From positions 186,001-250,000 of the forward strand of contig NZ_JAIRBM010000008.1 in the NCBI RefSeq assembly GCF_020089865.1: a stretch of 64,000 nt of DNA. The letters run 5' to 3'. Positions 19,222-38,646 of the stretch are shown here, piece by piece. The position numbers and the translations under genes are program-made. Under the pieces are notes generated by a model. It saw only the letters and a program-made list of their open reading frames with translations, was not told the DNA's origin and made no database searches. The DNA comes from Microvirga puerhi (GTDB lineage: Bacteria > Pseudomonadota > Alphaproteobacteria > Rhizobiales > Beijerinckiaceae). The stretch's first letter is position 1. Each line of letters opens with the position of its first letter.

Positions 19222-20889
19222 CTATGCAAATGCGGCGTCAGGCATTCTCGCTTCATCATCGAGACGCCACTTCAGGTGCAGGCCTCCGCCTGCGGTGGCT
19301 TCCAGGACCGGAATGGCGGACAGGAGTTGGCGCGTATAGGGATGCTGGGGTCGGTCGAAGATCGCATCGCGGTCTCCTTCCTCTACGATCTGGCCATCCT
19401 TCATGACGACCACGCGGTCCGCGATCTGCTCCACTACTCCGAGATCATGGCTGATGAAGAGGCAGGAAAAGCCGTGTCGCTCCTGCAGATCGGCAAAGAC
19501 GTCGAGTACCTGGGCCCGCACGGTCACGTCGAGAGCCGAGACTGGCTCATCGGCGATGACAAAGGCGGGTCGACGCACGATCGCCCGGGCGATGGCCACG
19601 CGCTGGCGTTGGCCCCCGGAAAGCTCGTGGGGATAGCGATCCGCATAGGTCTCGCCGAGACCCACCTCGCCAAGTACCTCGTGGACACGCGCGATCTTGT
19701 CGCGTGCGCTCATGTTCGGCACTTGACGCAGCGCCTCCAGCACGAGCGATCCAATGGTCATCCGCGGGTCCAATGAAGAATAGGGATCCTGGAAGACCAT
19801 CTGGCAGTTGAAGCGATAGTCGTTCCATCCCTCGCTGCCTGGCACGATCGAGCGACCGGCATAGCGGATCTCTCCGCCGCTCGGCTTCAGAAGTCCGGCG
19901 ATGGCACGGCCCAATGTCGTTTTGCCTGACCCCGATCCTCCGACGAGCGCGACGACCTCGCGCGGCTTGATTGCCAGATTGATGCCGTGCAGAGCGCGCT
20001 TGCCGGGCTCCTTGCGAAAGAAACCCTGCTTTCCACCGTAGTCGACCACCAGGTCGCGCACCTCCACGATCGGTGTCGTGGCCGGCGGAATGTCCCGGGT
20101 CGGCAGACGCCGCGGCATCGCGGCGAGGAGTTTGCGGGTATAGGGGTGTCGAGGATCGCGCAGAAGTTCTTCCGTCGCGCCTTCCTCCACGATCTCGCCC
20201 CGGCACATGACGATGATCCGGTCCGTGTATCGGGCGACCATCGAGAGATCGTGACTGATCATGAGCACGGCGGTGCCGCGCGCCCGTGTCAGCTCGACCA
20301 TGAGTTCCAGAACGTCGCGCTGCACGACCGCATCCAGGGCCGTCGTGGGCTCGTCCGCCACCAGAAGGGCCGGCTGCAGGAGCATGACCGATGCCAGCAT
20401 GATGCGTTGGCGCATGCCGCCGGAGAACTGATGTGGATAGGAAGTGAGGGCGCCCTCAGGATCCTTGATTCCGACACGGCGAAGCATGTCGAGAACGAGC
20501 GCGCGGCGCTCTTCGGCGCTGAGATTGCGATGCAGCGCCAATCCCTCGTCGAGCTGCCGGCCGATCAGCATCGACGGGTTGAGAGAGGTCATCGGCTCTT
20601 GGAACACCATGCCGATCCGCGCACCCCTCAGCTCCCTCAGCTCCGCAGGCGAGAGCTGCGCAATGTCCCTGCCTTCGAAATGGATGGTCCCTGCGGTTCT
20701 ACGGATCGAAGGCGGCTCAAGGCTCATGATGGCCTTGGCGGCAAGCGTCTTGCCGCTGCCGGATTCCCCGACGATTCCCACGATCTCGCCGGGTGCGACC
20801 GAAAAGCTGACGCCCTTGACGACCTCCAGGCCGCTGTGGGCGACCACGAGCCGCAAACCCTCGACGCTGAGCAGTTTCGTATCGGTCAT
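19222..20889 (-). CDS. Oligopeptide-type ABC transporter, fused double ATPase
   Basis: A 555-residue protein joining two ABC ATPase domains of the DppD and DppF type (about 5-260 and 285-540). Walker A motifs are GESGSGKT and GGSGSGKT; signature motifs are FSGGMRQR and LSGGQRQR. The fusion powers uptake through the two permeases encoded just upstream. Last gene of the operon, starting one base after the permease stop region and preceded by GAGGAGT. Substrate is likely a peptide or related amide, judged only from family and neighbours. Confidence 0.93.
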   Translation of the reverse strand: MTDTKLLSVEGLRLVVAHSGLEVVKGVSFSVAPGEIVGIVGESGSGKTLAAKAIMSLEPPSIRRTAGTIHFEGRDIAQLSPAELRELRGARIGMVFQEPMTSLNPSMLIGRQLDEGLALHRNLSAEERRALVLDMLRRVGIKDPEGALTSYPHQFSGGMRQRIMLASVMLLQPALLVADEPTTALDAVVQRDVLELMVELTRARGTAVLMISHDLSMVARYTDRIIVMCRGEIVEEGATEELLRDPRHPYTRKLLAAMPRRLPTRDIPPATTPIVEVRDLVVDYGGKQGFFRKEPGKRALHGINLAIKPREVVALVGGSGSGKTTLGRAIAGLLKPSGGEIRYAGRSIVPGSEGWNDYRFNCQMVFQDPYSSLDPRMTIGSLVLEALRQVPNMSARDKIARVHEVLGEVGLGETYADRYPHELSGGQRQRVAIARAIVRRPAFVIADEPVSALDVTVRAQVLDVFADLQERHGFSCLFISHDLGVVEQIADRVVVMKDGQIVEEGDRDAIFDRPQHPYTRQLLSAIPVLEATAGGGLHLKWRLDDEARMPDAAFA

Positions 20890-20890
20890 G

Positions 20891-21706
20891 TCAGACTCCT
20901 CGCATGCGCGGGTCGAGCTTGTCCCGAAGGGCGTCGCCCAAAAGGTTGATGCCGAGAAGCGTCAGCGAAATGCACAAGCCGGGGAAAATGCCGAGCCACA
21001 CGGCCTGAGCGATGAAGGCGCGGCTGCTGGCCAGCATATTGCCCCAGGTCGGAGCAGGTGGGGGAACGCCGAGCCCGAGGAAGCTCAGGGCACTCTCGGA
21101 GAGAAGCACCCAACCGAACATGGAGGTTGCCAGGACGGTGAGCGGTGCAACGCAGTTGGGAAGAATGTGCCGCGCCATCGTGAAGAGCTCGGAATTGCCC
21201 ATCACGCGGGAAGCTTCGACGAATTCCCGTTCGCGCAGAGACAGAACCGTGCCGCGCACGACGCGCGCGACCGACGGCGTGTAGGCGAGCCCTAGGGCCA
21301 GGATGATGCCGTATTTGTTCGCGCCGATCACGGCCAGCAGGCCGAGCGCCAGCAGGATGCCGGGGAATGCCAGGAGCGCGTCGTTGAACGCCATGAGGAC
21401 CCGGTCCGTCCAGCCCCGAAGATAGCCTGTCAGGACGCCGATGGCCGTCCCGGCGGTGACGGCCGCCGTGACCGTCAGAAGACTGATCCAGACGCTCGTG
21501 GCTGCAGCCGCCATCAGGCGGCTCAGCACGTCGCGACCGAACTCGTCCGTGCCGAGCCAGTAGATGGGGCCAGGCGGCTGCAGGCGTGCCGCGAAATTGA
21601 TCTTGAGCGGATCGAAGGGTGTCCAGACCGCACCGAATAATGCGCAGACGACAACGATGCCGATGATCGCACCGCCAAGGATGGCGTTGGGAGCCGGTAG
21701 TCTCAT
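20891..21706 (-). CDS. Oligopeptide-type ABC permease (DppC-like)
   Basis: A 271-residue inner-membrane permease with about six transmembrane segments and the BPD_transp_1 EAA-loop region (SRVMGNSELFTMARHILPN). It forms the channel with the DppB-like protein. Its ATG overlaps the upstream stop in an ATGA arrangement, so the two are translationally coupled. Confidence 0.92.
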   Translation of the reverse strand: MRLPAPNAILGGAIIGIVVVCALFGAVWTPFDPLKINFAARLQPPGPIYWLGTDEFGRDVLSRLMAAAATSVWISLLTVTAAVTAGTAIGVLTGYLRGWTDRVLMAFNDALLAFPGILLALGLLAVIGANKYGIILALGLAYTPSVARVVRGTVLSLREREFVEASRVMGNSELFTMARHILPNCVAPLTVLATSMFGWVLLSESALSFLGLGVPPPAPTWGNMLASSRAFIAQAVWLGIFPGLCISLTLLGINLLGDALRDKLDPRMRGV

Positions 21707-22647
21707 TCCGCAGTCACCCTTGGATCGAAGACGGGATAGAGGAGATCGACGATGAGGTTCACGACCACATAGACGAAGGCCACGAAGAGCAGGCAGCCCT
21801 GGATGACCGGATAGTCACGCGCGAAGATCGAATCGACGAGGAGACGCCCTAAGCCCGGAATCGTGAACACGGTCTCGACGACCGCGATGCCGCCGAGCAG
21901 ATTGCCCAGAACCAGGCCGATCAAAGTCCATGTGGGGCCGAATGCATTCTTGAAGGCGTGCCGCCACAGGACAGCGCTTTCAGAAAGACCCTTGGCACGG
22001 GCATGGGTGATGTAGTCGAGCCGCAGCACTTCGAGCGTGCTCGCCCGCGCCATGCGGATCAGGACACCCATCTCATGAAGGAACAGGGTCATGACCGGCA
22101 TGATGATATAGAGGAGCGCCGCCGTTGGATTGTCCCTGAAGGACACGTAGCCGACGACCGGAAGCCATTCGAGCTTCAGTCCGAAGAACAGGAGAAGCAG
22201 AAGCCCGAGCCAGAAGGTCGGAATCGACAGCAGCACCGTCGCCGAGCCCACGAGAGCGAGATCGAGGGCGCTGTTCTGCCGCCAGGCGGCAATCACGCCG
22301 GCCGGAACTGCGATGAGGCTTGCGATGAAGACGGCGACGAGCACGATCCGTGCGCTGATCCAGAAACGATCGAAAACCAGCGGCAGGACCGGTTGGCCCG
22401 ACGTGATGGAATTCCCGAGGTCGCCATGGAGCACGTTCCCGAACCAGATGAAGAACTGCACCGGGAGGCTCTGGTCGAGCCCCAGTCGCTTTTGCAGATC
22501 GGCGAGGCTCGCGGGGTCCGCGAGGTCGCCGAGCATGAGCGAGGCCGGATCTCCCGGGATAAGGCGGATCAGGACAAAGACTGAAACCGCCATGATCAGC
22601 AGAGTCGGGACGGCCATGAGGATCCGTCTGAGTGCGAAACGCAGCAT
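21703..22647 (-). CDS. Oligopeptide-type ABC permease (DppB-like)
   Basis: A 314-residue inner-membrane permease that begins MLRFALRRILMAVPTLL, the usual DppB opening helix, and carries the EAA loop (HARAKGLSESAVLWRHAFKN). GAAAGGGG is the ribosome site. Overlaps the DppC-like gene by four bases and follows the binding-protein gene by 24 bases. Confidence 0.92.
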   Translation of the reverse strand: MLRFALRRILMAVPTLLIMAVSVFVLIRLIPGDPASLMLGDLADPASLADLQKRLGLDQSLPVQFFIWFGNVLHGDLGNSITSGQPVLPLVFDRFWISARIVLVAVFIASLIAVPAGVIAAWRQNSALDLALVGSATVLLSIPTFWLGLLLLLFFGLKLEWLPVVGYVSFRDNPTAALLYIIMPVMTLFLHEMGVLIRMARASTLEVLRLDYITHARAKGLSESAVLWRHAFKNAFGPTWTLIGLVLGNLLGGIAVVETVFTIPGLGRLLVDSIFARDYPVIQGCLLFVAFVYVVVNLIVDLLYPVFDPRVTAE

Positions 22648-22671: not shown

Positions 22672-24219
22672 TTAGTTCGTCACGACCCGCGCGCCCCACA
22701 CGCGCGGCTTGCCTTCCCACGGATCGGCGCCTTCGACGCGCTTCGTATGGGCCCAGGCTTCCTGGCCATTGGCGAAGATGATCAGCGGCGTGGTCTCCAT
22801 CTGGAGCTTGTGGAGCTCGTCGAAGATTTTCCGGCGTTCGGCTTCGTCCGAAATGGTCGAGGCCTTCTCGATCAGCTCCTGAGCCTTCGCCTCATCCCAG
22901 ACCTTGCGCGGCTGCTTGTCCTTCGGACCGGCAAACTGCTCATAGCTGAGCGCAGGGTCGAGCCGTGCCGAATAGGAGAAGGACATCATCTGGTAGTTGC
23001 CCTTGTTGTAGCGATCAAGCTGCGTCGCCCATTCGAGCACCTCGATCTCTGCATTGATGCCGACGGCCTGCATCATGGCTTGCGCAATCACCGCTGCGTT
23101 GAAGCTCGGCACGTGGACGCGCTTGTTGGCGATGATCTTGATCGGCTCGCCCTTGTACCCTGCTTCCTTCAGCAGCTTCTGCGCCTTGGCGGGATCGTAG
23201 GCATATCCCTGCCGTTGGACGTCGTCGTAGTAAGCCGAGGTCAGCGCGACGGCCGAATTGTTGGGCTTGCCGTTGCCGTTCGAGACCGCTGCCACGAGTT
23301 GCGGTGTGTCGATGGCGGCCGCGATCGCCTGACGGAGCTTCACGTTGCTCAGAAGCGGATCACGCGTCTGGAACAGGAACGTGTGCTTGGTGGCAGAAGG
23401 GTAGAGGCCGACCGCCACGCTCTTGGCCTTGGAGAGTTCCGGAACATCCGAATCCAGGACCTGAGCGACGTCGACGGCGCCGGAGACGAGGGCGGCCTTC
23501 ACAGTCGAGGCGTCCGGCACGACGAGGAACTTCACCTCGGGCAGAACGGTCTTCTTGGCGCCGACAAGACCGTCCGGCTTGTCGCCGGGAGGCGACTGAT
23601 AATCCTCGAACCGCGTGAGGGTGACATATTCGCCGCGTCGCCAATCACCGAATTTGAATGGACCGGTTCCGACCGGCTTGTCCCAGCTGCCGTCCTCCTT
23701 GACCGAGCTCTTGTGCAGGACGGCCGTCACCCCGCAATCAGTGCGAGCGAGAGAGTCGAGAAAGAGAGCGCTCGGGTGATCGAGGGTCATCGTCACCGTG
23801 TTGGCGTCCGGAGCCTCGACTTTCTCGACCTTCAGACCGGCATGGCCGTCGAAGTCGGAGCGGCAGCGCCAATCGGTCTTGGGATCCATGTAGCGGTTCC
23901 AGCTCCACAGCACGTCCGCCGAGGTCAGCTCCGCGCCGTTGTGAAACTTGACGCCCTTGCGCAGGCGGAAAGTGTAGGTTTTCCCGTCGGGAGAGAGCTG
24001 GATGGATTCTGCCAGCAGGGGCGCAACCGTCCCGTTTTCCCGATAGCCGACGAGACCTTCCACCATGTGCAGCACCACGGCGTCGGTGTTGTCGTCGCGA
24101 TTGACGCCCGGATTCGTGCTGCGAATGTCCGCGTTCAATGCCACGGTCACGGTTTGGGCTGCGGCTGGCGTCGCCGCGATGAGCATGGCTCCAAGAGCGG
24201 ATGCGGTCGATATCTTCAT
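22672..24219 (-). CDS. Family 5 extracellular solute-binding protein (first paralogue)
   Basis: A 515-residue periplasmic binding protein with signal peptide (MKISTASALGAMLIAATPAAAQ). It has the SBP_bac_5 core: LLAES, the KGVKFHNGAELTSADVLWSW segment and GTGPF. It delivers substrate to the permease pair encoded next to it. It is a close paralogue of the binding protein at 26001-27569, sharing long stretches such as VNRDDNTDAVVLH and LDRYNKGNYQMM. An alpha/beta hydrolase gene lies 16 bases upstream. Confidence 0.93.
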   Translation of the reverse strand: MKISTASALGAMLIAATPAAAQTVTVALNADIRSTNPGVNRDDNTDAVVLHMVEGLVGYRENGTVAPLLAESIQLSPDGKTYTFRLRKGVKFHNGAELTSADVLWSWNRYMDPKTDWRCRSDFDGHAGLKVEKVEAPDANTVTMTLDHPSALFLDSLARTDCGVTAVLHKSSVKEDGSWDKPVGTGPFKFGDWRRGEYVTLTRFEDYQSPPGDKPDGLVGAKKTVLPEVKFLVVPDASTVKAALVSGAVDVAQVLDSDVPELSKAKSVAVGLYPSATKHTFLFQTRDPLLSNVKLRQAIAAAIDTPQLVAAVSNGNGKPNNSAVALTSAYYDDVQRQGYAYDPAKAQKLLKEAGYKGEPIKIIANKRVHVPSFNAAVIAQAMMQAVGINAEIEVLEWATQLDRYNKGNYQMMSFSYSARLDPALSYEQFAGPKDKQPRKVWDEAKAQELIEKASTISDEAERRKIFDELHKLQMETTPLIIFANGQEAWAHTKRVEGADPWEGKPRVWGARVVTN

Positions 24220-24235: not shown

Positions 24236-25105
24236 TTAGTTTTTTTCGTTGAGGCGCCGGTTCCTCAGAACGCCGGCGAAGAAGTTCTGCACATGCTCGA
24301 CGACCCGCATGCCGTCATGCGGCACATTGGGGACGAGGTCGAAGCGGACCTGGATGCCCTCCGCTTCGAAGGAGCGGCGCAGGCTATCGAGGCGTTCGGG
24401 GCGGGTGCGCCCGGCATCGTTGGCACCTGGCATCCAGTTCTTGCCGCCCTCGCGGTGAGTGATTTCCCAGGTTTCGAGATCGGCGGCTCCGACGATCATC
24501 TGGACCGGCACGCGACGCATCGCATCGATATCGATTGTGCGGCCGAAGCGCTCCTTCACGTCACGGATGCCCACCCACCAGTCACGGGTCGGGTCGAGTA
24601 GCGTTACGGAGCCCGGAGCGCCGATGGCGGCCGCCCATAGCCGCTGCGGATGGAGCATGAGGAAGCGATGCGTGAAGTGTCCGCCGCCCGAGAAGCCGAA
24701 GAGGGCAAAGCGATCTTCCAGGAGGCCATAGCGTTCACGGACCTCCCCGACGATCGACAGAAGAACCTCGTCATATCGGATCCCCGCTTCCGCCATGTAC
24801 TTGAAGCCGTCCCGGTTTCCGTCGCCTAAGACTCCGACAGGAAAAAGCGGGCAGAGAATGATGCAGTTGTTCCAGCGACCGAACTCCGCAAAAGCATCGC
24901 GGTATTCCATGAAGGCGCGTCCCGTGCCGTGCATGGCGACGACGAGTTCCGGCGCATCATCCTGGCCGAGGGTCGGAGGAACGTAGAGGCAATAAGAAAA
25001 GCGTGGATCCTGCTTGCTCGCAAAGACCGTCGTATGGCCGAGATCATAGATCTGGCGTCCTCGATCCTTTTCCGGCGTTTCAGGTGGGGCAACGGCTAGA
25101 TTCAT
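24236..25105 (-). CDS. Alpha/beta hydrolase (esterase or amidase), first gene of the ABC operon
   Basis: A 289-residue hydrolase without signal peptide. The nucleophile elbow is GFSGGG (G-x-S-x-G), and the likely catalytic histidine is in NVPHDGMR near the C-terminus. It resembles the polyhydroxybutyrate-depolymerase/feruloyl-esterase-like branch. It is the leading gene of the transporter operon, so it may hydrolyse the imported compound. A related hydrolase, with the same general position, sits in the second peptide operon at 56932-57804. Substrate unknown. Confidence 0.82.
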   Translation of the reverse strand: MNLAVAPPETPEKDRGRQIYDLGHTTVFASKQDPRFSYCLYVPPTLGQDDAPELVVAMHGTGRAFMEYRDAFAEFGRWNNCIILCPLFPVGVLGDGNRDGFKYMAEAGIRYDEVLLSIVGEVRERYGLLEDRFALFGFSGGGHFTHRFLMLHPQRLWAAAIGAPGSVTLLDPTRDWWVGIRDVKERFGRTIDIDAMRRVPVQMIVGAADLETWEITHREGGKNWMPGANDAGRTRPERLDSLRRSFEAEGIQVRFDLVPNVPHDGMRVVEHVQNFFAGVLRNRRLNEKN

Positions 25106-25130
25106 TCTGCAAGCTCGATTGGTTCAATAA

Positions 25131-25140
25131 TTGGCGCCAA
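25131..25140. promoter_or_regulatory. Perfect palindrome TTGGCGCCAA upstream of the hydrolase operon
   Basis: A 10-base perfect palindrome lies 25 bases upstream of the hydrolase ATG in the divergent region shared with the GntR gene. It is a plausible operator core, but short enough to occur by chance. Confidence 0.35.
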
Positions 25141-25310
25141 AATGTTTGCATCTATGACGAAGGTTGGCAATATAGGATTTTGAAATTTCCAAAGGCCGCG
25201 TTTGGGGAAATATCGTTGCGCCCGCGGGCCACGCCCGAAGACGGATTGCCCATAGCGCACGATGTCGTATGAGAGGCATCGAGCCATGCCACCAAGGTTC
25301 CTTTGCGCCC

Positions 25311-25976
25311 ATGACCGTCAAAACCGCTTCCACTCCTGAACGCCTCGTCGACGTGATGGCACGGGATATTCAGGCCGGGGTCTTCACGCCAGGCACGTGG
25401 CTCAAGCAGATCGACCTCGAGAACCGCTATGGCGCGACACGCATGGATGTGCGCCGCGCGCTTGACCAACTGGCGCTGAAGAGGCTGGTTCGGCATGTCC
25501 CCAATCGCGGCTATCATGTCCATGCCCTGGACGGTCGGCAGGCCAACGACATCCGCGACGTTCGAATCATCCTCGAGACGGCCGCTGCCGAGAACATGGT
25601 CGGGAACGTCAACGACGCCGACCTGGACGATCTTCGCCGTCTGGCAGCGCGATTCGACGAGCTGATCCTGACCGGCACAATTCTTGAGCAATATGACGCC
25701 AACATCGCGTTTCACGTGCGTCTCCTGAAGCTCTGCTCCAACCAGGAACTCGTGAACATAGTCATGGAACTGCGCGGTCGTGGCCCGTCGGCACCCGCGA
25801 CCCAATGGAAGACACGGGCCCGCATCGAGCAGTCAGGTCGCGAACACTTCATGATGATCGATGCCCTGGCGGCCCGCGATGCCGTCGCTCTCAGGCGCGT
25901 CCTCGCCGCTCACATCCGGCAGAGCGGTCTTGAGGAGGCTTCGGTGATTCAGCCGCTCGAGCGGAAGAGCGGCTGA
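25311..25976 (+). CDS. GntR-family regulator (FCD subfamily)
   Basis: A 221-residue repressor/activator with an N-terminal winged helix (about 5-72, including RYGATRMDVRRALDQLALKRLV) and an all-helical FCD ligand-binding domain (about 85-205). It is divergent from the hydrolase/ABC operon and convergent with the second binding-protein gene, lying between two paralogous binding proteins, so it is the obvious candidate regulator of the whole locus. I chose the ATG at 25311; an in-frame ATG at 25269 has no ribosome site. Confidence 0.88.
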   Translation: MTVKTASTPERLVDVMARDIQAGVFTPGTWLKQIDLENRYGATRMDVRRALDQLALKRLVRHVPNRGYHVHALDGRQANDIRDVRIILETAAAENMVGNVNDADLDDLRRLAARFDELILTGTILEQYDANIAFHVRLLKLCSNQELVNIVMELRGRGPSAPATQWKTRARIEQSGREHFMMIDALAARDAVALRRVLAAHIRQSGLEEASVIQPLERKSG

Positions 25977-25979
25977 ATC
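25946..25979. terminator. 13-base hairpin overlapping the GntR stop codon
   Basis: A perfect 13-base stem (GATTCAGCCGCTC / GAGCGGCTGAATC) with an 8-base loop includes the TGA stop of the GntR gene. It lies between convergent genes and is placed to end transcription from both sides. Confidence 0.65.
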
Positions 25980-26000
25980 TAATTTGACCGGAGAACGAAG

Positions 26001-27569
26001 TCAGTTCGCGATCCGGACCTCCCAAGCGCGCGGCTTGGAGAGTACCGATGCGGTATATCCCTGAACGTTCTTCCGGAAGGCGCTGGCTTCGACGCCGTTA
26101 TAGAGCATGACGAATGGGACCTCGGTCAGGAACCGGCCATGCAACTCGTCGAAGATCTTCTGACGCTCATCCGTTTTCGAGGCGATCATCGACTTTTCGA
26201 GGAGAGCCTGTGCTTCCGGGCTGTCCCAGACCTTGCGTGGTTGCTTGTCCTTCGGACCCATTACCGATTCGAAGCTGAGAGAGGGATCGAGCCGCGCGGA
26301 GTAGGGGAACGCCATCATCTGATAGTTGCCCTTGTTGTAGCGATCGAGCTGGGTTCCCCATTCCAGAACCTCGAGATTGGCGTTGATCCCGACGGCCTGC
26401 AGCATGGCTTGAATGATGACGGAGGATGCGAAGGTCTGCGGATAGCGCTTGTTGGTCAGGATCGTGACCGGCTCACCCTTGTATCCCGCTTCCTGTAGCA
26501 GCTTTTTTGCAACTTCGGGGTCGTACTTGTAGCCCTGATCGTGCGCTGCCGTGTGATAGGAGGAGCTCAGTGGCACGATGGAGTTGTTATGCTTTGCTAA
26601 ACCTTCGGTGACGGCCTGGGCGATCTGCGGCGTATCGAGCGCTGCCGCGATGGCTTGCCGCAATTTGACGCTCGACAGGAGCGGATCGCGCGTCTGGATC
26701 AGAAGCGTGCTCAATCCCATGTTCTGGGCAATCGAGAGGCCGAGATTGGCATTGCCCTTGATTTCCTTCACATCCGCATTGGCAATGTCCGGCACGACGT
26801 CCACATCGCCGCGAAGCAGGGCGGCCTTTGCGGCGGCATTGTCCGGAATCACCAGGAAACGGACCTCGTCGACGAGCGGGCGCTTTGACCCCGAATAGCC
26901 ATCAGGCTTGCTCTCGCTGCGATTCGCATAGCTGTCGAACTTCGAAAGCTTGACGAACTCGCCGCGCCGCCATTCCTTCAGCTTGAAGGGCCCGGTGCCG
27001 ATCGGCTTGTCCCAGGTTCCGTCGGCCTTGACGGAATCTTTGTGCACGATGCCGGTCATGGCGCAATCGGTGCGGGCAAGTGTCGCCAGAAAGAGCGCAT
27101 CGGGCTTCGTCAGCCGGAAGACAACCGTTTGCGGATCCGGTGTTTCGACCGCTTCCACCTGCGAACGACCGCGGCCATCGAATTCGGAGAGGCAACGCCA
27201 TTCGGTCTTCGGGTCGGTGTAACGCTTCCAGTTCCAGACGACGTCTTCGGCCGTCAGCTCGGCGCCATTGTGAAACTTGACGCCTTTGCGCAGCTTGAAG
27301 GTGTAGGAGCGCCCGTCCTCGGAGATCGCGTAGGATTCCGCCAGGAGAGGCTGGATGCTGGCGTTCTCACCATAGGCGACGAGACCCTCGACGACGTGCA
27401 GAACCACCGCGTCCGTATTGTCGTCCCGGTTGACGCCGGGATTGGTGCCGCGAATGTCGGCATTGAGGGCGATGCGCAGCAAAGATTGCTGCGCAAATGC
27501 CGGAAACGCTGAGACAGCCAATAAGGCCGATGCGCATCCGGCAAGAAGGAGTTTCGCCTTCAGTTTCAT
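26001..27569 (-). CDS. Family 5 extracellular solute-binding protein (second paralogue)
   Basis: A 522-residue periplasmic binding protein with signal peptide (MKLKAKLLLAGCASALLAVS..., cut likely after AFA). It aligns along its full length with the protein at 22672-24219, with roughly half or more of residues visibly identical. It has no permease or ATPase genes of its own nearby, so it probably shares the DppBC-DF complex of the adjacent operon and broadens its specificity. Of two adjacent ATG codons the one at 27569 has better spacing to GGAGG. It follows the C45 hydrolase gene and is probably co-transcribed. Confidence 0.93.
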   Translation of the reverse strand: MKLKAKLLLAGCASALLAVSAFPAFAQQSLLRIALNADIRGTNPGVNRDDNTDAVVLHVVEGLVAYGENASIQPLLAESYAISEDGRSYTFKLRKGVKFHNGAELTAEDVVWNWKRYTDPKTEWRCLSEFDGRGRSQVEAVETPDPQTVVFRLTKPDALFLATLARTDCAMTGIVHKDSVKADGTWDKPIGTGPFKLKEWRRGEFVKLSKFDSYANRSESKPDGYSGSKRPLVDEVRFLVIPDNAAAKAALLRGDVDVVPDIANADVKEIKGNANLGLSIAQNMGLSTLLIQTRDPLLSSVKLRQAIAAALDTPQIAQAVTEGLAKHNNSIVPLSSSYHTAAHDQGYKYDPEVAKKLLQEAGYKGEPVTILTNKRYPQTFASSVIIQAMLQAVGINANLEVLEWGTQLDRYNKGNYQMMAFPYSARLDPSLSFESVMGPKDKQPRKVWDSPEAQALLEKSMIASKTDERQKIFDELHGRFLTEVPFVMLYNGVEASAFRKNVQGYTASVLSKPRAWEVRIAN

Positions 27570-27634
27570 CATGGTCCTCCAGAAGTCCTTTGATTCCTGC
27601 TCTGTTATGATTGCCTGCAGCCGTTGATCGCTGC

Positions 27635-28813
27635 TTAGGCGGTCTTCACGAATGATGTGACCTGTGGCGATCCAGCTTCGCTCTGGTTGGTGGGCGTTTG
27701 GATATCCATGTCGAGCTTGTAGGTCGTGAAGTTGCGGTTGAGGGCAGGCAGCATGGCGACCTCCATGAGCCCGAGCATCGGCTCCATCACGATCATCGCG
27801 ACCGTGGCGCTGAGGTTGTTGCTCAAGTTCTTGCGCGGCGGGCGGCAGACCGACCACGGCGTCTCGAAATCATCGAAGAGCGCATTCTTCACCGTGTCCC
27901 GTGTGACATGGCCGAGATGAGGCTCGATCAATGCCCGGACCCGCAGATCGCGATAGAGGCTGTCGGGGGTATTCTCGATTCCCGTATCCTTGAGCTTCGA
28001 CAGTGCGACCGGGCTTTGAAAATGATTGGCGTGAACGATGAGTCCTCGCTCCGCATGCACCTGGAAAGTTTCATCGGGAGCGCATTCGAAATCGATCGCG
28101 ATGCCGTTCGCCTGGCTGACAATCATATTGTTGGCGGCGGATTTCGGCGTCACGTAAACAGCCCGCATGGAGGCCGCCACCTGCCGCTGTTCGAGAACCT
28201 TGCGGCGGATGAGCGCCAGCGGAACACCGAGACGGCGATAGTCCCGATCTGTTTCCAGATAATTCGCAGTGATCGCGATTCCCGCAGCATTAAAACCCGA
28301 ACGCGCCAGCGCGCCGGCCTCCGTGAAAGTCAGGATGTCCGGCCCGTCTTCCCGGCGAATCTTGAGCACCACTGCCGTATCGGCGCATTCCACTTTCCAG
28401 TCCCAATTCTGGGCATGGATCAGGCGTCCGTCTTTGGTGACTTCCGGCAGAGCCACGACACCGGTGCAGCCGTCCGGATCGTCGTCGGGAACATTGCGCT
28501 CGTCGGCCGGGCGTTGCGCGAGCTTCAGGATCTCCGTGCGGGCATTGAGGAGGACGACCGACTCGAACGCGACGCCCGCTCCCTCGGAAATGCCGCGCAT
28601 TTCCTCGAGATAAGTGGGATCGAAGCGGTCGATCGTTGGCTCGAAGCGCTTCACGAGCGCTTTGATGCCCTCTGCCGTGAGGTTGTTGCTGCCAAGCTGT
28701 TCGGAATAGTGTTCGATACCAAGGCGGACCCGATCTGCGGCCTGCTCGCCATATTGCCGGCCTCTCTCGCGGGGCAGGCCGGATACTTCAATGAGCGGGC
28801 AGGGTGTTGTCAT
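27635..28813 (-). CDS. C45-family Ntn hydrolase (acyl-CoA:6-APA acyltransferase-like)
   Basis: A 392-residue protein of the AAT/peptidase C45 family. These are N-terminal-nucleophile enzymes that self-cleave before a cysteine; here the expected Gly-Cys junction is in DGCTGVV (Cys about 116). Relatives form or hydrolyse amide bonds between acyl groups and amines, including penicillin acyl transfer and some acylated amino compounds. There is no signal peptide, so it would act in the cytoplasm on imported substrate. It leads a two-gene unit with the second binding protein and is divergent from a GntR regulator. GAAAGGCG lies before the ATG. Confidence 0.87.
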   Translation of the reverse strand: MTTPCPLIEVSGLPRERGRQYGEQAADRVRLGIEHYSEQLGSNNLTAEGIKALVKRFEPTIDRFDPTYLEEMRGISEGAGVAFESVVLLNARTEILKLAQRPADERNVPDDDPDGCTGVVALPEVTKDGRLIHAQNWDWKVECADTAVVLKIRREDGPDILTFTEAGALARSGFNAAGIAITANYLETDRDYRRLGVPLALIRRKVLEQRQVAASMRAVYVTPKSAANNMIVSQANGIAIDFECAPDETFQVHAERGLIVHANHFQSPVALSKLKDTGIENTPDSLYRDLRVRALIEPHLGHVTRDTVKNALFDDFETPWSVCRPPRKNLSNNLSATVAMIVMEPMLGLMEVAMLPALNRNFTTYKLDMDIQTPTNQSEAGSPQVTSFVKTA

Positions 28814-28855
28814 CGGGACGCCTTTCTCGGAGGGCTGGTGTTTTTCGTCAGTACA

Positions 28856-28881
28856 TTGTATTTCATCATGACAGAATACAA
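28856..28881. promoter_or_regulatory. Inverted repeat TTGTATT-N12-AATACAA in the C45/GntR divergent region
   Basis: Perfect 7-base arms with a 12-base spacer lie midway between the divergent start codons. The segment TGTATTTC (28857-28864) recurs in the next intergenic region at 29795-29802. Likely operator of the adjacent GntR protein; inference from position and symmetry. Confidence 0.55.
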
Positions 28882-28898
28882 GCAAGAGGAAATTTGGC

Positions 28899-29786
28899 GT
28901 GCAGCAACCGACCCGATTGCAGCAGGATCTCGCCGAACGCATCGTCCAGCTGGTGAATGAGGATGGTCTCGCTGTCGGAGACCTGCTCAATGAGAACAGT
29001 CTGGCGCGGCGGCTCGAGGTCTCGCGCACGCCTGTCCGTGGGGCGCTTCAACATCTCGAACGTTTAGGAATCGTCGCCCGCCGCCCGAATCGCGGGGTCG
29101 AGCTGATCGCGATCCCACGGGCGGAGTCGATCACCGCTCCGACCGCTGATGCGGACGAGGATTGGCTGGTCCGCATTGCGCGGGACCATCGAACAGCCGG
29201 GCTGCCTCAGGACATCTCGGAAGTCGAGATCATGCGTCGCTACGGCCTGAATCGGCCGACGGTACAGCGCGTCCTGTCACGGCTGGCCGATCTTGAGATG
29301 GTCGAGCGAAAGCCGGGCTACGGCTGGCGCTTCCTGACCGGCACGCGTGACACGGCGACCCACGACGAGAGTTATCGATTCCGCCTCATGATCGAGCCGA
29401 TGGGGATCCTGGAACCGGGATTTCGCCTGGAGTCCTCATGGATCGAGAACATGCGGCGCCTCCATGCGGAGACTTTGGAGCGCCCATGGCAGGAATCGTC
29501 CAGCGTCGCCTTCTTCGAGATGAATGCGGCTTTCCATGAGGGTCTTGCGGCGGCATCGGGCAATCGGTTCGTCCATACCGCCATCCGGCACCAGAATCAG
29601 CTCAGGCGCTTCTCGCAATATGACTGGAAGTTCGGTTTCGAGCGGGTGGTCGTGAACTGCCGCGAACATATGGAGATGCTCGATTATCTCGCGCGCGATG
29701 AGCGTGAGATCGCCTCCCTGCTGATGCGCCGCCATCTGGAGCGCGCGAGCCAGGTCAGATCCAGGACCGATCCGGATCCCGGGTAA
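28899..29786 (+). CDS. GntR/FCD-type regulator with two winged-helix domains
   Basis: A 295-residue transcription factor. The first winged helix (about 5-65) has the GntR pattern LARRLEVSRTPVRGALQHLERLGIV. A second winged-helix segment (about 105-150, IMRRYGLNRPTVQRVLSRLADLEMVERK) follows before a helical C-terminal FCD-like domain. A tandem DNA-binding arrangement is uncommon for GntR proteins. The start is GTG at 28899 with GAGGA 8 bases upstream. It is divergent from the C45 hydrolase gene and directly precedes the aminotransferase gene, so it likely controls both sides. Confidence 0.85.
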   Translation: MQQPTRLQQDLAERIVQLVNEDGLAVGDLLNENSLARRLEVSRTPVRGALQHLERLGIVARRPNRGVELIAIPRAESITAPTADADEDWLVRIARDHRTAGLPQDISEVEIMRRYGLNRPTVQRVLSRLADLEMVERKPGYGWRFLTGTRDTATHDESYRFRLMIEPMGILEPGFRLESSWIENMRRLHAETLERPWQESSSVAFFEMNAAFHEGLAAASGNRFVHTAIRHQNQLRRFSQYDWKFGFERVVVNCREHMEMLDYLARDEREIASLLMRRHLERASQVRSRTDPDPG

Positions 29787-29810
29787 GTTGATACTGTATT
29801 TCTTATCAAC
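29787..29810. promoter_or_regulatory. Inverted repeat GTTGATA-N10-TATCAAC upstream of the aminotransferase
   Basis: Perfect 7-base arms immediately after the regulator stop codon and 45 bases before the aminotransferase ATG. Its spacer contains TGTATTTC, shared with the palindrome at 28856-28881. It could be an operator, or a weak terminator for the regulator gene. Confidence 0.5.
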
Positions 29811-29855
29811 AAAGTTCAAATATTCCCATTCCCTTGCCTTCACCAGGAGATCCTC

Positions 29856-31199
29856 ATGACAGCCGCGCCGTCTCTCGCCTCTCGCGCGATGGCCAACGAT
29901 ATCGGCGACGCCCATTGGCTTCCCTTCACGGCCATGCGCCAGTTCCGCTCGAACCCGATGATGTTCTTGGCGGCGGAAGGCATGCACTACACATCTGCGG
30001 ATGGACGGCGGATCCTCGACGGCATGGCGGGTCTTTGGTGCGTCAATGCCGGCCACGGGCAACCCCGCATCGTCGAGGCCATTCGAGAAGCCGCTGGGCG
30101 GCTCGATTTCGTGTCCTCATTCAAGATGACGCATCCCGCCACATTCGAGCTCGCTGGGCGTCTTGCCGGGATTGCTCCCGAGGGCTTCGGGCGTGTGTTC
30201 TTCACCAATTCAGGCTCCGAAGCTGTCGACAGCGCGCTCAAAATCGCCCGGGGCTACCATCGCGCGCGCGGCGATGCCGGCCGTACCAAGTTCATCGGAC
30301 GAGCCAAGGGTTATCACGGCATGGGGTTCGGTGGCCTCTCGGTCGGTGGCATTGGCCGTCACAAGCGAGATTTCGGCCCCCTGCTGCCGGATGTTGCGCA
30401 TCTCTCATTGCCCTACGACCGAGCCTCGATGGGCTTCTCGCGCGGCCAGCCCGATGCGGGGGCGCATTATGCGGACGAACTGGAAAGCCTGCTTCAGATC
30501 AATGATCCCGCAACCGTCGCAGCCGTCATCGTCGAGCCGGTGATCGGCTCCGGCGGCGTTTATCCGCCGCCGAAGGAATATCTTGAACGCCTGCGCTCCA
30601 TCTGCAGCCGTCACGGCATCTTGTTGATCTTTGACGAGGTCATCACCGGTTTCGGTCGCCTTGGCACAGCCTTCGCGGCGCAGGCTCTCCGCGTCACACC
30701 GGATCTCATCACCTGCGCCAAGGGCATGACCAACGGCGCCGTTCCCATGGGAGGAGTCCTCATCCGGGACTTCATCTTCGACGCCTTCATGGCGGGCCCG
30801 CCGGAGGCGATCGAGCTGTTCCACGGTTACACTTATTCCGGCCATCCCCTGGCTTGCGCAGCGGGGCTTGCGGCCCTCGATGTTTACGAGGAACTCCGGC
30901 TGTTCGAGCGAACGGCGGTCATTGCGACGACTTGGCAAGAGGCCCTTCACAGTCTGAGGGACGAGCCTCATATCGCAGACATCCGCAACATTGGTCTTCT
31001 CGGCGTGGTCGAACTCGCGGCTCGAAAGGGCGAGCCGGGTGCAAGGGGAGCCTCCTGTGCCCAGAGCTGCTACGACAACGGCGTGCTCGTGCGCGCGTCG
31101 GGCGATCTCATCGTCCTGTCGCCGCCGCTGATCATCGACGAGGAGCAGATCGCACAGATCGTGGACAGCATCCGCTCCGCCGTGAGACAGATGAACTGA
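29856..31199 (+). CDS. Class III aminotransferase (omega-amino acid:pyruvate type)
   Basis: A 447-residue PLP-dependent aminotransferase. The cofactor-binding lysine is in TCAKGMTNGAVPMG, and the family motifs LLIFDEVITGFGRLG, TNSGSEAVDSALK and VEPVIGSGG are intact. Enzymes of this branch move the terminal amino group of beta-alanine, taurine, putrescine-like or other omega-amino compounds to pyruvate, giving an aldehyde. An aldehyde dehydrogenase gene follows 19 bases later, so the pair would turn an amine into an acid. AGGAGA precedes the ATG. Confidence 0.92.
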   Translation: MTAAPSLASRAMANDIGDAHWLPFTAMRQFRSNPMMFLAAEGMHYTSADGRRILDGMAGLWCVNAGHGQPRIVEAIREAAGRLDFVSSFKMTHPATFELAGRLAGIAPEGFGRVFFTNSGSEAVDSALKIARGYHRARGDAGRTKFIGRAKGYHGMGFGGLSVGGIGRHKRDFGPLLPDVAHLSLPYDRASMGFSRGQPDAGAHYADELESLLQINDPATVAAVIVEPVIGSGGVYPPPKEYLERLRSICSRHGILLIFDEVITGFGRLGTAFAAQALRVTPDLITCAKGMTNGAVPMGGVLIRDFIFDAFMAGPPEAIELFHGYTYSGHPLACAAGLAALDVYEELRLFERTAVIATTWQEALHSLRDEPHIADIRNIGLLGVVELAARKGEPGARGASCAQSCYDNGVLVRASGDLIVLSPPLIIDEEQIAQIVDSIRSAVRQMN

Positions 31200-31218
31200 A
31201 CGTCTAGGAGATCGATTC

Positions 31219-32655
31219 GTGTCGCATCATCATCAATTTTATGTCGACGGGCAGTGGATCGCGCCGGTTGAAGAGCGCCATCTCGACGTGATCAATCCGG
31301 CGACCGAAGAGCCGGTGACGTCGATTGCAATCGGACAAGCAGCGGACGTTGACAAGGCTGTTGCAGCTGCACGGCGGGCTTTTGATTCCTTCGCGCAGAC
31401 GAGCCGCGATGAGCGCCTTGCTCTGTTGACGGAGATCGTGAAGGTCTATCAGCGCCGTGCCCAGGATCTTGCCGAAGCTGTTTCGTCCGAGATGGGTGCG
31501 CCGCTGGCCTTCGCACGGGAGCGACATGTGCCGGCCGGATTGGGGCATCTCCAGCGGATCATCGAGGTCTTGAAGGCCTATTCCTTCGATGAGCGGATCG
31601 GCTCGACGCTCATCGCCCGCGAGCCCATTGGCGTCGTGGGCCTGATCACTCCCTGGAACTGGCCCCTGAATCAGATTGCCTGCAAGGTCGGTCCAGCCTT
31701 GGCGGCGGGTTGCACGATGGTCCTCAAGCCCAGCGAGGTTGCGCCTCTGTCGGCCTTGGTCTTTGCGGAGATCCTTGAGGAGGCCGGTGTTCCGGCAGGC
31801 GTGTTCAATCTGGTCAATGGTGACGGTCCAGGTGTCGGACAAACCCTTTCGAGCCATCCTGACATCGACATGGTCTCCTTCACGGGCTCGACCCGCGCCG
31901 GAATCCTCGTGGCGAAAGCCGCCGCGGATACCGTGAAGCGAGTGCATCAGGAGCTGGGTGGAAAATCGCCCAACATCATCCTGGACGATGCCGATTTCGA
32001 AGCTGCGATCACGCATGGGACGCGGGCTTGCTTTGCCAACAGCGGACAATCCTGTAACGCACCGACCCGGTTGCTTGTCCCGGCTGACAGGCAGAACGAT
32101 GTGATCGAGATCGCCCGGCACATTGCAGCGGAGACAGTCGCGGGAGATCCGACATCGCCCACGACGACCATTGGCCCTGTCGTCAGCCGAATTCAATTCG
32201 AGCGCATTCAGGCCCTGATCGAGGCCGGCATCCAGGAAGGAGCTACTCTGGTGGCCGGTGGTCTAGGACGTCCTGCGGGCCTCAATCGGGGCTACTACGT
32301 GCAGCCCACGGTGTTCGCGAATGTGCGCAACGACATGAAGATCGCCCGCGAGGAAATCTTCGGGCCTGTCGTGAGCATTCTGCCCTATCGTGACGAGGAA
32401 GAGGCAATTCGGATCGCAAACGACACGGTCTACGGCCTGTCCAGCTACGTCACATCGGGCGATATCGAACGAGCCAGAGGCGTCGCTCGCCGGATCCGAG
32501 CCGGTATGGTCCATCTGAATGGCGCTCGCGGGGACAATGCGGCGCCTTTTGGCGGCTACAAGCAGTCGGGGAATGGTCGCGAATGGGGTCGGTTCGGCTT
32601 CGAGGAGTTCCTCGAAACGAAGTCCGTATTCGGATATTCGGAAGCCCAGGCCTGA
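31219..32655 (+). CDS. Aldehyde dehydrogenase following the aminotransferase
   Basis: A 478-residue NAD(P)-dependent aldehyde dehydrogenase with base glutamate in QELGGKSP and nucleophile cysteine in NSGQSCNAPTR. Start is GTG at 31219 after AGGAGAT. Its place directly behind the aminotransferase suggests that it oxidises the aldehyde released by transamination. It is not a close copy of the other aldehyde dehydrogenase at 7912-9330, so the two probably serve different routes. Confidence 0.93.
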   Translation: MSHHHQFYVDGQWIAPVEERHLDVINPATEEPVTSIAIGQAADVDKAVAAARRAFDSFAQTSRDERLALLTEIVKVYQRRAQDLAEAVSSEMGAPLAFARERHVPAGLGHLQRIIEVLKAYSFDERIGSTLIAREPIGVVGLITPWNWPLNQIACKVGPALAAGCTMVLKPSEVAPLSALVFAEILEEAGVPAGVFNLVNGDGPGVGQTLSSHPDIDMVSFTGSTRAGILVAKAAADTVKRVHQELGGKSPNIILDDADFEAAITHGTRACFANSGQSCNAPTRLLVPADRQNDVIEIARHIAAETVAGDPTSPTTTIGPVVSRIQFERIQALIEAGIQEGATLVAGGLGRPAGLNRGYYVQPTVFANVRNDMKIAREEIFGPVVSILPYRDEEEAIRIANDTVYGLSSYVTSGDIERARGVARRIRAGMVHLNGARGDNAAPFGGYKQSGNGREWGRFGFEEFLETKSVFGYSEAQA

Positions 32656-32667
32656 CACAGGGACAGA

Positions 32668-32683
32668 AGAAGAATTTTCTTCT
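32668..32683. terminator. Inverted repeat AGAAGAA-TT-TTCTTCT after the aldehyde dehydrogenase
   Basis: Seven-base arms around TT, 13 bases after the stop codon. A partial copy (AGAAGAATTTC) begins at 32703. Could act as a weak terminator or processing site. Confidence 0.35.
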
Positions 32684-32720
32684 CCCCAAGGTTCCACTCG
32701 GAGAAGAATTTCAATCCGAA

Positions 32721-32746
32721 GGAATGTTCTTTTAAAAGAACATTCC
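32721..32746. promoter_or_regulatory. Perfect 26-base palindrome upstream of the ATP-grasp gene
   Basis: GGAATGTTCTTTT is followed directly by its reverse complement AAAAGAACATTCC, 62 bases before the ATP-grasp ATG. The lack of a loop and the dyad symmetry favour a protein-binding site; as RNA it could still fold into a hairpin. Confidence 0.55.
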
Positions 32747-32807
32747 GGTTGACGAAAAGATCGTTTCGCCGGAATCCTCCTGACATCTTCAGGAGCGAGG
32801 AAGCGTC

Positions 32808-33764
32808 ATGTCGAAGGTGTTCGTCATCCATGAGAACAGTGCCTGGGTGGAACCGCTGCGGGCGGCTTTTGCCCAGGATGGCACGCCCTACGAAGAGTGG
32901 TTTCTCGACCAGGGCGTGCTCGATCTCCGCTCCCCACCGCCAGCGGGTGTTTTCTACAACCGGATGAGCGCTTCGTCTCACACGCGGGATCATCGCTTTG
33001 CCGCCGAGTACACCGGTGCCGTCCTCGCATGGCTGGAGCGACACGGCGGGACCATTGTGAACGACAGCCGCGCGCTACGCCTTGAGATCAGCAAGGTGGC
33101 TCAGTACGAAGCCCTCACAAAATTTGGGCTGCGGACACCGGAGACGCTTGCGGTCGTTGGCAAGAGCAACATCACGGCCGCTGCGGCGACGCTCGGCTTT
33201 CCTCTTATCCTGAAGCACAATCGTGGCGGCAAAGGCTTGGGCGTGCGTCTCTTCCTGAGCGCCGCGGCTCTTGAACAGCATCTCGAATCGGATGAGTTCG
33301 AAGAACCCGTGGACGGGATTACGCTGGTTCAGCGCTATATCCAGGCGCCCGAACCGTTTATCACGCGCCTTGAGTTCATCGGTGGACGATTCCTCTATGC
33401 GGTGCGGGTCGATACGAGCGAAGGCTTCCAGCTTTGCCCGGCCGATGCCTGCCAAGTCGACAACAGCGCCATCGGTTCGGCAGCCTGCCCTGCGGTTGCT
33501 CCATCCGAGAAGTTCCAAATTCTTAAGGGATATGAGAACCCGGCAATTCCGAAATATGAAAGCTTCATCGCTGCCAATGGGATTGGAATCGCCGGCATCG
33601 AGATCATCACCGACCAGAATGGTGTTACCTATACCTACGATGTGAACACCAACACGAACTACAATCCCGATGCAGAAGCGCGCGCGGGGCTCTTCGGGAT
33701 GCGGACGATCGCCCGGCATCTCCGCTCACTTCTCGACCGTGAGTTTGCCGCCCAGGCAGCTTGA
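32808..33764 (+). CDS. RimK-like ATP-grasp ligase
   Basis: A 318-residue ATP-grasp protein. The ATP-grasp core spans about 100-305, with the lysine-containing FPLILKHNRGGKG segment and the acidic metal-binding DVNTNTNYNPDAEAR segment near the C-terminus. RimK-like ligases join a carboxylate to an amine, often adding glutamate or another amino acid. It lies downstream of the aminotransferase/ALDH pair on the same strand but 150 bases away with its own palindrome, so it may be a separate unit. Substrates unknown; a role in activating or conjugating the substrate is inference. Confidence 0.83.
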   Translation: MSKVFVIHENSAWVEPLRAAFAQDGTPYEEWFLDQGVLDLRSPPPAGVFYNRMSASSHTRDHRFAAEYTGAVLAWLERHGGTIVNDSRALRLEISKVAQYEALTKFGLRTPETLAVVGKSNITAAAATLGFPLILKHNRGGKGLGVRLFLSAAALEQHLESDEFEEPVDGITLVQRYIQAPEPFITRLEFIGGRFLYAVRVDTSEGFQLCPADACQVDNSAIGSAACPAVAPSEKFQILKGYENPAIPKYESFIAANGIGIAGIEIITDQNGVTYTYDVNTNTNYNPDAEARAGLFGMRTIARHLRSLLDREFAAQAA

Positions 33765-36176: not shown

Positions 36177-36938
36177 TCAGACGACACCAGCGTCGACGAT
36201 ATAGTTCTGACCTGTGCACCGCCGGGCAGCGTCGGACGAGAGGAAGAGAACCATCGCGGCTACGTCCTCGGGCAGGATCTCGCCCTTGATCGACTGCCGC
36301 GCCTGGGCTGCCTCCCATTTCTCCGGAGTCCGCCATGTTTTGCGCTGGCGCTCCGTCATCACCCAACCGGGTGTCACGCAGTTCACGCGGATGCCATCGG
36401 GTCCGAGTTCTCGGGCAAGGGACCGTGTGAAGCCGAGGACGGCCGATTTCGCCGTCGTATAGGCAATGAGGCCTGCTGCTCCCTGCATCCAGGAAGTCGA
36501 CCCCAGGTTGATGATCGATCCGCCTCCCAAGGATCGCATGCCGGAAACGACGGCTTGGCTCACGAACATCATCGGCCGCAGATTCACCGCGAAGCGGTCA
36601 TCCCAATAGGCTTCGTTCACCTCGTCGAAGCGATGACGCTCGTCGTGACCTGCATTATTGACGCAAATCGAGAAGGGACCGGTTTCCTCCTCCAGTTCCT
36701 TTATCGCTTTGCGCGTGGAGGCAAGGTCCCGCAGGTCGACGGGCCGGAAGGAGATGATCGCATCGGAATCTCGAAGCTGCGTTATCAAGTCCTCGCCAGC
36801 TGATTTGTTGACATCAAGGAAGGCAACCTTCGTTCCCTGCGCCGCCAGGGCTTCGACGATCGCGCGGCCAATGCCGTCGGCACCGCCGGTGACCAGGGCC
36901 GTGCGGGATGAAAGATCGGGATAGCGAGGAAAGGTCAC
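36177..36938 (-). CDS. Short-chain dehydrogenase/reductase
   Basis: A 253-residue NAD(P)-dependent SDR. It shows the cofactor motif VTGGADGIGRA, NNAG, and the catalytic Ser and Tyr-x-x-x-Lys (GSTSWM...YTTAK). Start is GTG, overlapping the upstream stop as GTGA, so it is coupled to the IclR/SMP-30 fusion. In this pathway it most likely oxidises the aldose to the aldonolactone, which the SMP-30 half would open. Sugar specificity not readable. Confidence 0.9.
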   Translation of the reverse strand: MTFPRYPDLSSRTALVTGGADGIGRAIVEALAAQGTKVAFLDVNKSAGEDLITQLRDSDAIISFRPVDLRDLASTRKAIKELEEETGPFSICVNNAGHDERHRFDEVNEAYWDDRFAVNLRPMMFVSQAVVSGMRSLGGGSIINLGSTSWMQGAAGLIAYTTAKSAVLGFTRSLARELGPDGIRVNCVTPGWVMTERQRKTWRTPEKWEAAQARQSIKGEILPEDVAAMVLFLSSDAARRCTGQNYIVDAGVV

Positions 36939-38644: not shown

Positions 38645-38646
38645 GA

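Follow-up and report, generated by a model that had tools for sequence, protein, structure and literature searches.

What does an autoproteolytic C45-family hydrolase do between a peptide-type importer and an omega-aminotransferase? The locus that raises this question lies in Microvirga puerhi (assembly GCF_020089865.1, host genome 5.17 Mb), in a 64,000-nucleotide stretch of contig NZ_JAIRBM010000008.1 (positions 186,001 to 250,000) that we call the window and to which all coordinates below refer. An original prediction had proposed that the locus imports an acylated amine or peptide-like amide, releases the amine in the cytoplasm and degrades it. Our analysis argues that the locus is probably a conserved catabolic module for a small amide, in which import and C45 hydrolysis are often followed by transamination and, in some genera, by oxidation. 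Family scans with Pfam and NCBIfam found all the predicted genes in the window, with small corrections, as follows.

19222..20889, minus strand: DppDF, fused double ATPase (two ABC_tran stretches, oligo_HPY)
20891..21706, minus strand: DppC-type permease (PF00528, OppC_N)
21703..22647, minus strand: DppB-type permease (PF00528)
22672..24219, minus strand: SBP1, second family 5 solute-binding protein (SBP; PF00496/SBP_bac_5)
24236..25105, minus strand: alpha/beta hydrolase (ABH), putative accessory amidase or esterase (GFSGG nucleophile elbow)
25269..25976, plus strand: GntR1, lineage-specific FCD regulator with a single winged helix-turn-helix (wHTH) (PF00392, PF07729; alternative start 25311)
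26001..27572, minus strand: SBP2, core family 5 solute-binding protein in line with C45 (PF00496/SBP_bac_5)
27635..28813, minus strand: C45 autoproteolytic Ntn hydrolase, predicted amidase, 392 aa (PF03417, NF040521; chosen start 28813)
28856..28881, no strand: palindrome TTGTATT-N12-AATACAA, candidate operator and/or promoter (repeat search of the divergent promoter region)
28899..29786, plus strand: GntR2, core tandem-wHTH FCD regulator divergent from C45 (two GntR stretches plus FCD)
29856..31199, plus strand: AptA-type class III omega-aminotransferase (NF052567)
31219..32655, plus strand: aldehyde dehydrogenase (ALDH), optional member (PF00171, 529.8 bits)
32808..33764, plus strand: ATP-grasp protein, neighbor outside the module (below both RimK cut-offs)

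Two arms thus leave the divergent intergenic region. The left arm runs through C45, SBP2, ABH, SBP1, DppB, DppC and DppDF, with GntR1 on the plus strand between SBP2 and ABH, while the right arm consists of GntR2, AptA and ALDH. A plus-strand open reading frame (ORF) at 27698-28960 was rejected as the C45 gene; it is without a family match and is a shadow of the true minus-strand gene.

The original prediction proposed co-occurrence in relatives as its test, and we found that C45, a binding protein, the importer and a GntR regulator do recur together across genera. For the scoring we used 80 named loci surrounding C45 relatives, the best of 314, with counts taken only over loci with enough sequence and each unnamed metagenome-assembled genome treated as its own genus-level group. 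The closest relatives in this set are from Microvirga, with 83-90% identity to the C45 protein of the window. An SBP gene lies directly behind C45 in 58/67 named loci, and the entire SBP-DppB-DppC-DppDF row is directly downstream in 56/67 (21/30 genus-level groups). GntR2 is divergent and within 1.5 kb in 57/71 named loci (22/34 groups), and AptA, counted at ≥50% identity up to about 9 kb to the left or right, is near C45 in 42/71 (15/34 groups). The groups bearing the core span alpha- and betaproteobacteria, with Bradyrhizobium, Cupriavidus, Acidovorax, Ramlibacter, Labrys, Rhizobium and Microvirga among them. Since genera of two classes share this gene order, whereas the host genome has few places for such genes (38 for SBP_bac_5 in its 5.17 Mb and 10 for class III aminotransferases), this linkage is beyond chance. 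Four other recurrent neighbors, an aconitase (c17, 6 loci), M20 (c30, 4), SGNH (c19, 5) and an AspA-like protein (c22, 4), were set aside as indicating no consistent substrate. A C45 relative with 55% identity was also seen on a 363-kb Klebsiella pneumoniae plasmid (NZ_CP141562.1), the sole enterobacterial host among 30 of the 31 records listed.

The C45 protein itself has the marks of an active enzyme of its family. It scores above the cut-offs of PF03417 (AAT, 54.9 bits versus 23.2) and NF040521 (C45_proenzyme, 301.6 versus 85), and matches no Pfam family other than AAT at E ≤ 1. It aligns with the penicillin acyltransferase IAT (structure 2x1d, E = 2.6e-21) over the nucleophile Cys, the QNWD Asp and the Asn of the NH pair (preceding His264), which we take to be catalytic; in a second solved IAT entry, 2x1c, an Ala stands at the position of the Cys. 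The predicted nucleophile Cys116 lies in a DGCT motif that is present in 75/79 called C45 relatives, and the G115-C116 pair, aligned to the Gly-Cys of IAT, is unchanged in 20/20 aligned rows, window included. The protein is predicted to mature by self-cleavage before Cys116. Inspection by eye recognized no signal peptide in the C45 sequence, and hydrolysis would therefore be cytoplasmic.

Kinship with IAT raises the question of whether C45 might instead be an acyltransferase, or a detoxifying hydrolase, whose target is a beta-lactam-like or acyl-amide antibiotic or signal, in a role that is not nutritional. IAT entries are the only solved C45 relatives that we found, the bacterial C45 enzymes AzsT and DobA serve natural-product pathways according to excerpts of PMC10445470 and of the preprint PMC12154687, and locus L173 has near its C45 gene an ORF that by eye is serine beta-lactamase-like (it has no NCBIfam match at a strict limit of 1e-40). 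However, an importer of the peptide type and catabolic aminotransferases frequently accompany C45, and no biosynthetic cluster was recognized in the loci, which were annotated in part. We consider a role in antibiotic or signal metabolism very unlikely.

What C45 might release can be approached through the enzymes that accompany it. AptA scores above the equivalog cut-off of NF052567 (633.5 versus 500), and its best PDB chain is 4b98, a beta-alanine:pyruvate transaminase. The carboxyl site of the Pseudomonas beta-alanine:pyruvate aminotransferase is made of Trp61, Arg414 and Gln421, as given in PMC3606037. In an alignment of AptA proteins, the Trp is present in 54/54 rows and the Arg in 53/53 rows with a letter, but Gln421 is replaced by V, L, M or A in 53/53, a second AptA of the host genome included. 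According to the review PMC3281772, the Caulobacter AptA accepts beta-alanine, beta-aminobutyrate and alpha-methylbenzylamine. Given this range and a pocket without Gln421, the donor may be a short beta- or omega-amino acid or a carboxyl-free amine.

The second AptA (G000:C34:237425-238762) is 54% identical to that of the window and has a higher score (718 bits); within 15 kb around it there is no match to the window's other query genes. We rejected the ALDH of the window as a CoA-acylating malonate semialdehyde dehydrogenase (MMSDH), since it reaches 249.3 bits against a TIGR01722 cut-off of 448.5; an MMSDH over the cut-off (659.3 bits) is encoded elsewhere in the host genome. Because this MMSDH and the second AptA lie elsewhere, a plain beta-alanine pathway is not required of the locus.

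At loci that lack AptA or have it only at a distance, other amine-removing enzymes are found near C45. L173 has a GabT (TIGR00700, 574.2 versus 506.65) 2.0 kb upstream of C45, with an ALDH-like gene (33% identity to that of the window) beside it on the other strand and no GntR2 match at this locus. In L154, the genes behind GntR2 encode a PRK06105 aminotransferase (673 versus 517) and an ALDH that is SSADH-like, its score of 449.3 falling short of the 646.35 cut-off. A DAO-family oxidoreductase occurs near C45 in 5/63 named loci, and in L057 and L136 the DAO-family enzyme is nearest to L-pipecolate oxidase, far below its cut-off (274.9 and 296.2 versus 600). This variety suggests that C45 releases a primary amine or omega-amino acid.

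How far does this association extend beyond named relatives? In genomes drawn evenly from the class, with up to five candidates scored per genome, a C45 match at E ≤ 1e-60 was found in at least 30/385, and in 20/199 family genomes at E ≤ 0.001, the host genome being included in both counts. Regions were fetched around all 33 non-own class places and 7 hand-picked ones of the 21 non-own family places (four genomes supplied two regions each), and at the limits then applied a C45 match was present in 25/33 and 7/7, respectively. The hand-picked family regions are rich in partners (DppB in 6/7, GntR2 in 6/7, ABH in 4/7 and AptA in 4/7), and pooling them with the class regions gives 21/32 for DppB, 19/32 for GntR2, 14/32 for ABH and 8/32 for AptA.

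Several of these results, like the lack of Gln421, weigh against a catabolic module. In the class regions alone, DppB is near in 15/25 (GntR2 in 13/25, ABH in 10/25) and AptA at ≥50% identity is near C45 in only 4/25. Neither importer nor GntR2 is nearby in L147-L153 (C45 identity 53-57%) or L135 (68%); both are also missing from L158, but that locus is at a contig end. Among named loci, 9/67 have no DppB at ≥50% (L012, L030, L056, L059, L060, L061, L064, L075 and L079). ALDH, which the original prediction placed in the pathway, is present in the window, but its membership is optional only, as it is near (≥50%) in 8/67 named loci and 2/31 groups, Microvirga and Acidovorax. From the class and family sampling we therefore define the core as importer, C45 and regulator, with AptA a frequent partner in the closest relatives and not a fixed one.

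This pattern could also mean that the core serves peptide or amide scavenging by itself, while AptA and ALDH form a separate amine or beta-alanine pathway lying near a shared regulator in some lineages. Such a division would account for the AptA genes (≥50%) not being near C45 in 29/71 named loci and 21/25 class regions, for AptA being on the strand opposite C45, and for the host's having a second AptA (718 bits) and an MMSDH (659.3 bits) elsewhere. It sits poorly with AptA being directly behind GntR2 in 37/71 named loci (12/34 groups, two classes) and with the other deaminating enzymes near C45, and we judge it unlikely, if worth keeping in mind.

Within Microvirga, the left arm varies in an informative way. 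In L007, L008 and L009 it is a single one-strand run, C45-SBP2-ABH-DppB-DppC-DppDF, whereas SBP1 and GntR1 are present as extras in L002-L005 and in the window. The two minus-strand blocks of the window therefore appear to be a single system that SBP1 and GntR1 interrupt. Microvirga sp. VF16 has both arrangements, L004 on a plasmid and L008 on the chromosome. In an SBP tree of 55 rows (30 of the 77 C45-adjacent rows, sampled, and all 23 ABH-adjacent ones), SBP1 groups with SBP2 of the same lineage (support 99/97), and the ABH-linked SBPs of other families are separate (99/95); SBP1 thus looks like a local duplicate. GntR1 was clustered in four Microvirga loci and is also found in Chelatococcus L010. 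Hence, the second binding protein and second regulator of the original prediction are real, but they were added in Microvirga and its close kin and lie outside the core.

The identity of ABH is less sharply defined. Its sole Pfam match at E ≤ 1 has E = 0.19 and falls far short of the cut-off, and the protein scores weakly against an NCBIfam PHA-depolymerase model (29.6 versus a cut-off of 150). Its GFSGG motif and His263 are unchanged in 10 aligned rows, window included, and it is distantly related to poly(aspartic acid) hydrolase-1 (PDB 9o7u, E = 1.4e-11, 47.4 bits). This likeness invites a different order of events, where ABH or an amidase cuts first and C45 acts later on an imported oligo-amide of an omega-amino acid, handled much like a nylon oligomer. 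ABH (11/63 named loci and 10/25 class regions) and amidase-signature enzymes (6/63 named loci) do recur near C45. Set against this, 52/63 named loci have no ABH and the similarity to the poly(aspartic acid) enzyme is weak, so that we find this reading highly improbable.

FadR-type GntR/FCD regulators usually have a single N-terminal wHTH. In GntR2, two wHTH domains precede FCD. When the second wHTH was cut out, it matched the Pfam GntR family in 10/10 members (E = 8.6e-12 to 1.1e-3), 7/10 being over the 27-bit cut-off, mostly across the second half of the profile. In the host genome, the GntR2 place alone spans the full tandem model; another place, C8:67648-68265, spans its second wHTH and FCD part. 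A tandem-wHTH match (E ≤ 1e-45, up to 12 candidates scored per genome) was found in at least 14/190 class genomes, the host included. All 11 places with E ≤ 2.1e-96 are in C45 regions already in the sample, and five weaker ones (E = 1.7e-90 to 8.3e-76; G199, G233, G238, G337 and G345) are in other settings, one of them beside an aconitase. The tandem-wHTH regulator is therefore not exclusive to C45. Tandem-wHTH relatives directly before an aconitase-type gene were also seen in L209 (9575-13199) and L079 (4529-8242); this pair adjoins the C45 locus in L079, and no C45 was found in L209.

Between GntR2 and C45 lies the palindrome at 28856-28881. At up to two mismatches it has one place in the host genome, which is no enrichment because a backward control pattern has four per strand; at up to three mismatches it has two matches in the window, a number equalled by 5/100 shuffles. 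The long palindrome is shared by the window and eight Microvirga loci (L002-L009); the remaining regions inspected do not have it in this form. A shorter piece, AAATACA, is far more widespread, occurring in 47/60 named C45/GntR2 regions and 7/16 sampled ones. For 41 other arrangements of its letters the median was 0, and the top three (33, 32 and 28) were shifted pieces of the same CAAAATACA stretch. In an earlier count, AAATACAW was present in 40/59 regions versus 1.4% of 5000 random 280-base segments; it is on the C45 strand in 41/60 regions and on the opposite strand in 0. The weight of this element rests on its conservation, not on genomic rarity. It is a candidate operator, promoter or both. 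It could be no more than the C45 operon's promoter, in view of its strand bias, of a TTG hexamer seen by eye upstream of AAATACAW and of the limited spread of the long palindrome; the results of a sigma-70 scan did not include it.

Taken together, the conserved linkage of C45, importer, regulator and, in many genera, omega-aminotransferase fits the order of import, hydrolysis and transamination of the original prediction. From the gene identities, this linkage, the retained catalytic residues and the conserved intergenic element, all established here, we infer a reaction order, a substrate and a mode of regulation for the module. The family 5 binding proteins and DppBC-DF would bring the amide into the cytoplasm, where C45, self-cleaved before Cys116, would hydrolyze it. 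The primary amine (or short omega-amino acid) so freed would pass to AptA for transamination, pyruvate being the probable acceptor, and ALDH, where present, would oxidize the resulting aldehyde or semialdehyde. ABH, or an amidase-signature enzyme in other genomes, probably trims related amides or esters. GntR2 probably responds to a compound of the pathway and governs the two arms from the intergenic region between them. The substrate class given in the original prediction, an acylated amine or peptide-like amide, is putative.

The ATP-grasp ligase included in the original prediction has to be dropped. No relative was found at any named locus where the upstream sequence was long enough to look (0/67), and just 6/99 family genomes, own included, have one. 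The protein is below the cut-offs of the RimK models PF08443 (20.1 versus 21) and TIGR00768 (62.4 versus 143.4). In the 152-base gap that separates its gene from ALDH there is a perfect 13-nt inverted repeat at 32721-32746 (a 26-bp palindrome, GGAATGTTCTTTT/AAAAGAACATTCC), which was not among the results of a terminator scan.

Two other proteins of the window are unusual in architecture. At 36935-38713, minus strand, a single ORF near sugar-type ABC transporter genes fuses an IclR regulator (HTH, IclR_C) to an SMP-30/gluconolactonase domain, likely a lactonase. At 13330-17832, plus strand, a 1500-aa protein combines DUF4082 repeats, a dimethylformamidase-like domain and cadherin/Ig domains, and adjoins a CobW-type GTPase.

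We found no account of this locus, or of a tandem-wHTH FCD regulator, in openly licensed papers; the module is new in its combination and its regulator and ordinary in its reaction types. If the module reading is true, a common, unassigned C45 "acyltransferase-like" group of soil- and root-associated bacteria can be given a metabolic role that is open to test, and for a family of Dpp importers a substrate class other than peptides becomes possible. The tandem-wHTH FCD regulator and its short conserved element offer a compact system for studying how a second wHTH alters GntR recognition.

Among known systems, penicillin IAT, insect Tan and bacterial AzsT (C45/PF03417) are the nearest to the hydrolase, with which they share a fold family by profile, a catalytic Cys after Gly, and amide cleavage. 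Here, by contrast, C45 is tied to an importer and often to an aminotransferase, the comparison with Tan and AzsT being one of published descriptions. According to an excerpt of PMC10194958, Tan, the N-beta-alanyldopamine (NBAD) hydrolase that cleaves a beta-alanyl amine, belongs to the C45 family. A bolder proposal is that the locus is a proteobacterial counterpart of Tan, which would import N-(beta-alanyl) or short omega-aminoacyl amides (carcinine- or N-beta-alanyldopamine-like), hydrolyze them by C45 and burn the omega-amino acid via AptA, under a regulator whose four wHTH per dimer would read a composite palindrome; we think this quite unlikely. The nylon oligomer pathway (nyl hydrolases, nylD1 and nylE1), as a section of PMC6752018 describes it, follows a like logic of amide hydrolysis, aminotransferase and aldehyde dehydrogenase. 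In our locus the hydrolase is a C45 protein, and an importer and a tandem-wHTH regulator are in the set; in Pfam (E ≤ 1), C45 matches AAT alone and ABH nothing relevant, so neither is of the NylA/B/C type, and amidase-signature enzymes are confined to the surroundings of C45 relatives (6/63). The aminotransferase passes the AptA equivalog score, which relates it to the Caulobacter enzyme (excerpt of PMC3281772), and differs in having a genomic role tied to C45. Like the DppABCDF and other family 5 peptide importers, the transporter has two permeases, two ATPase domains and a family 5 SBP, but its ATPases are fused and, in this lineage, there are two SBPs per importer. Finally, GntR2 shares the N-terminal wHTH and C-terminal FCD of the FadR-type GntR/FCD regulators and differs from them by the second wHTH between the two.

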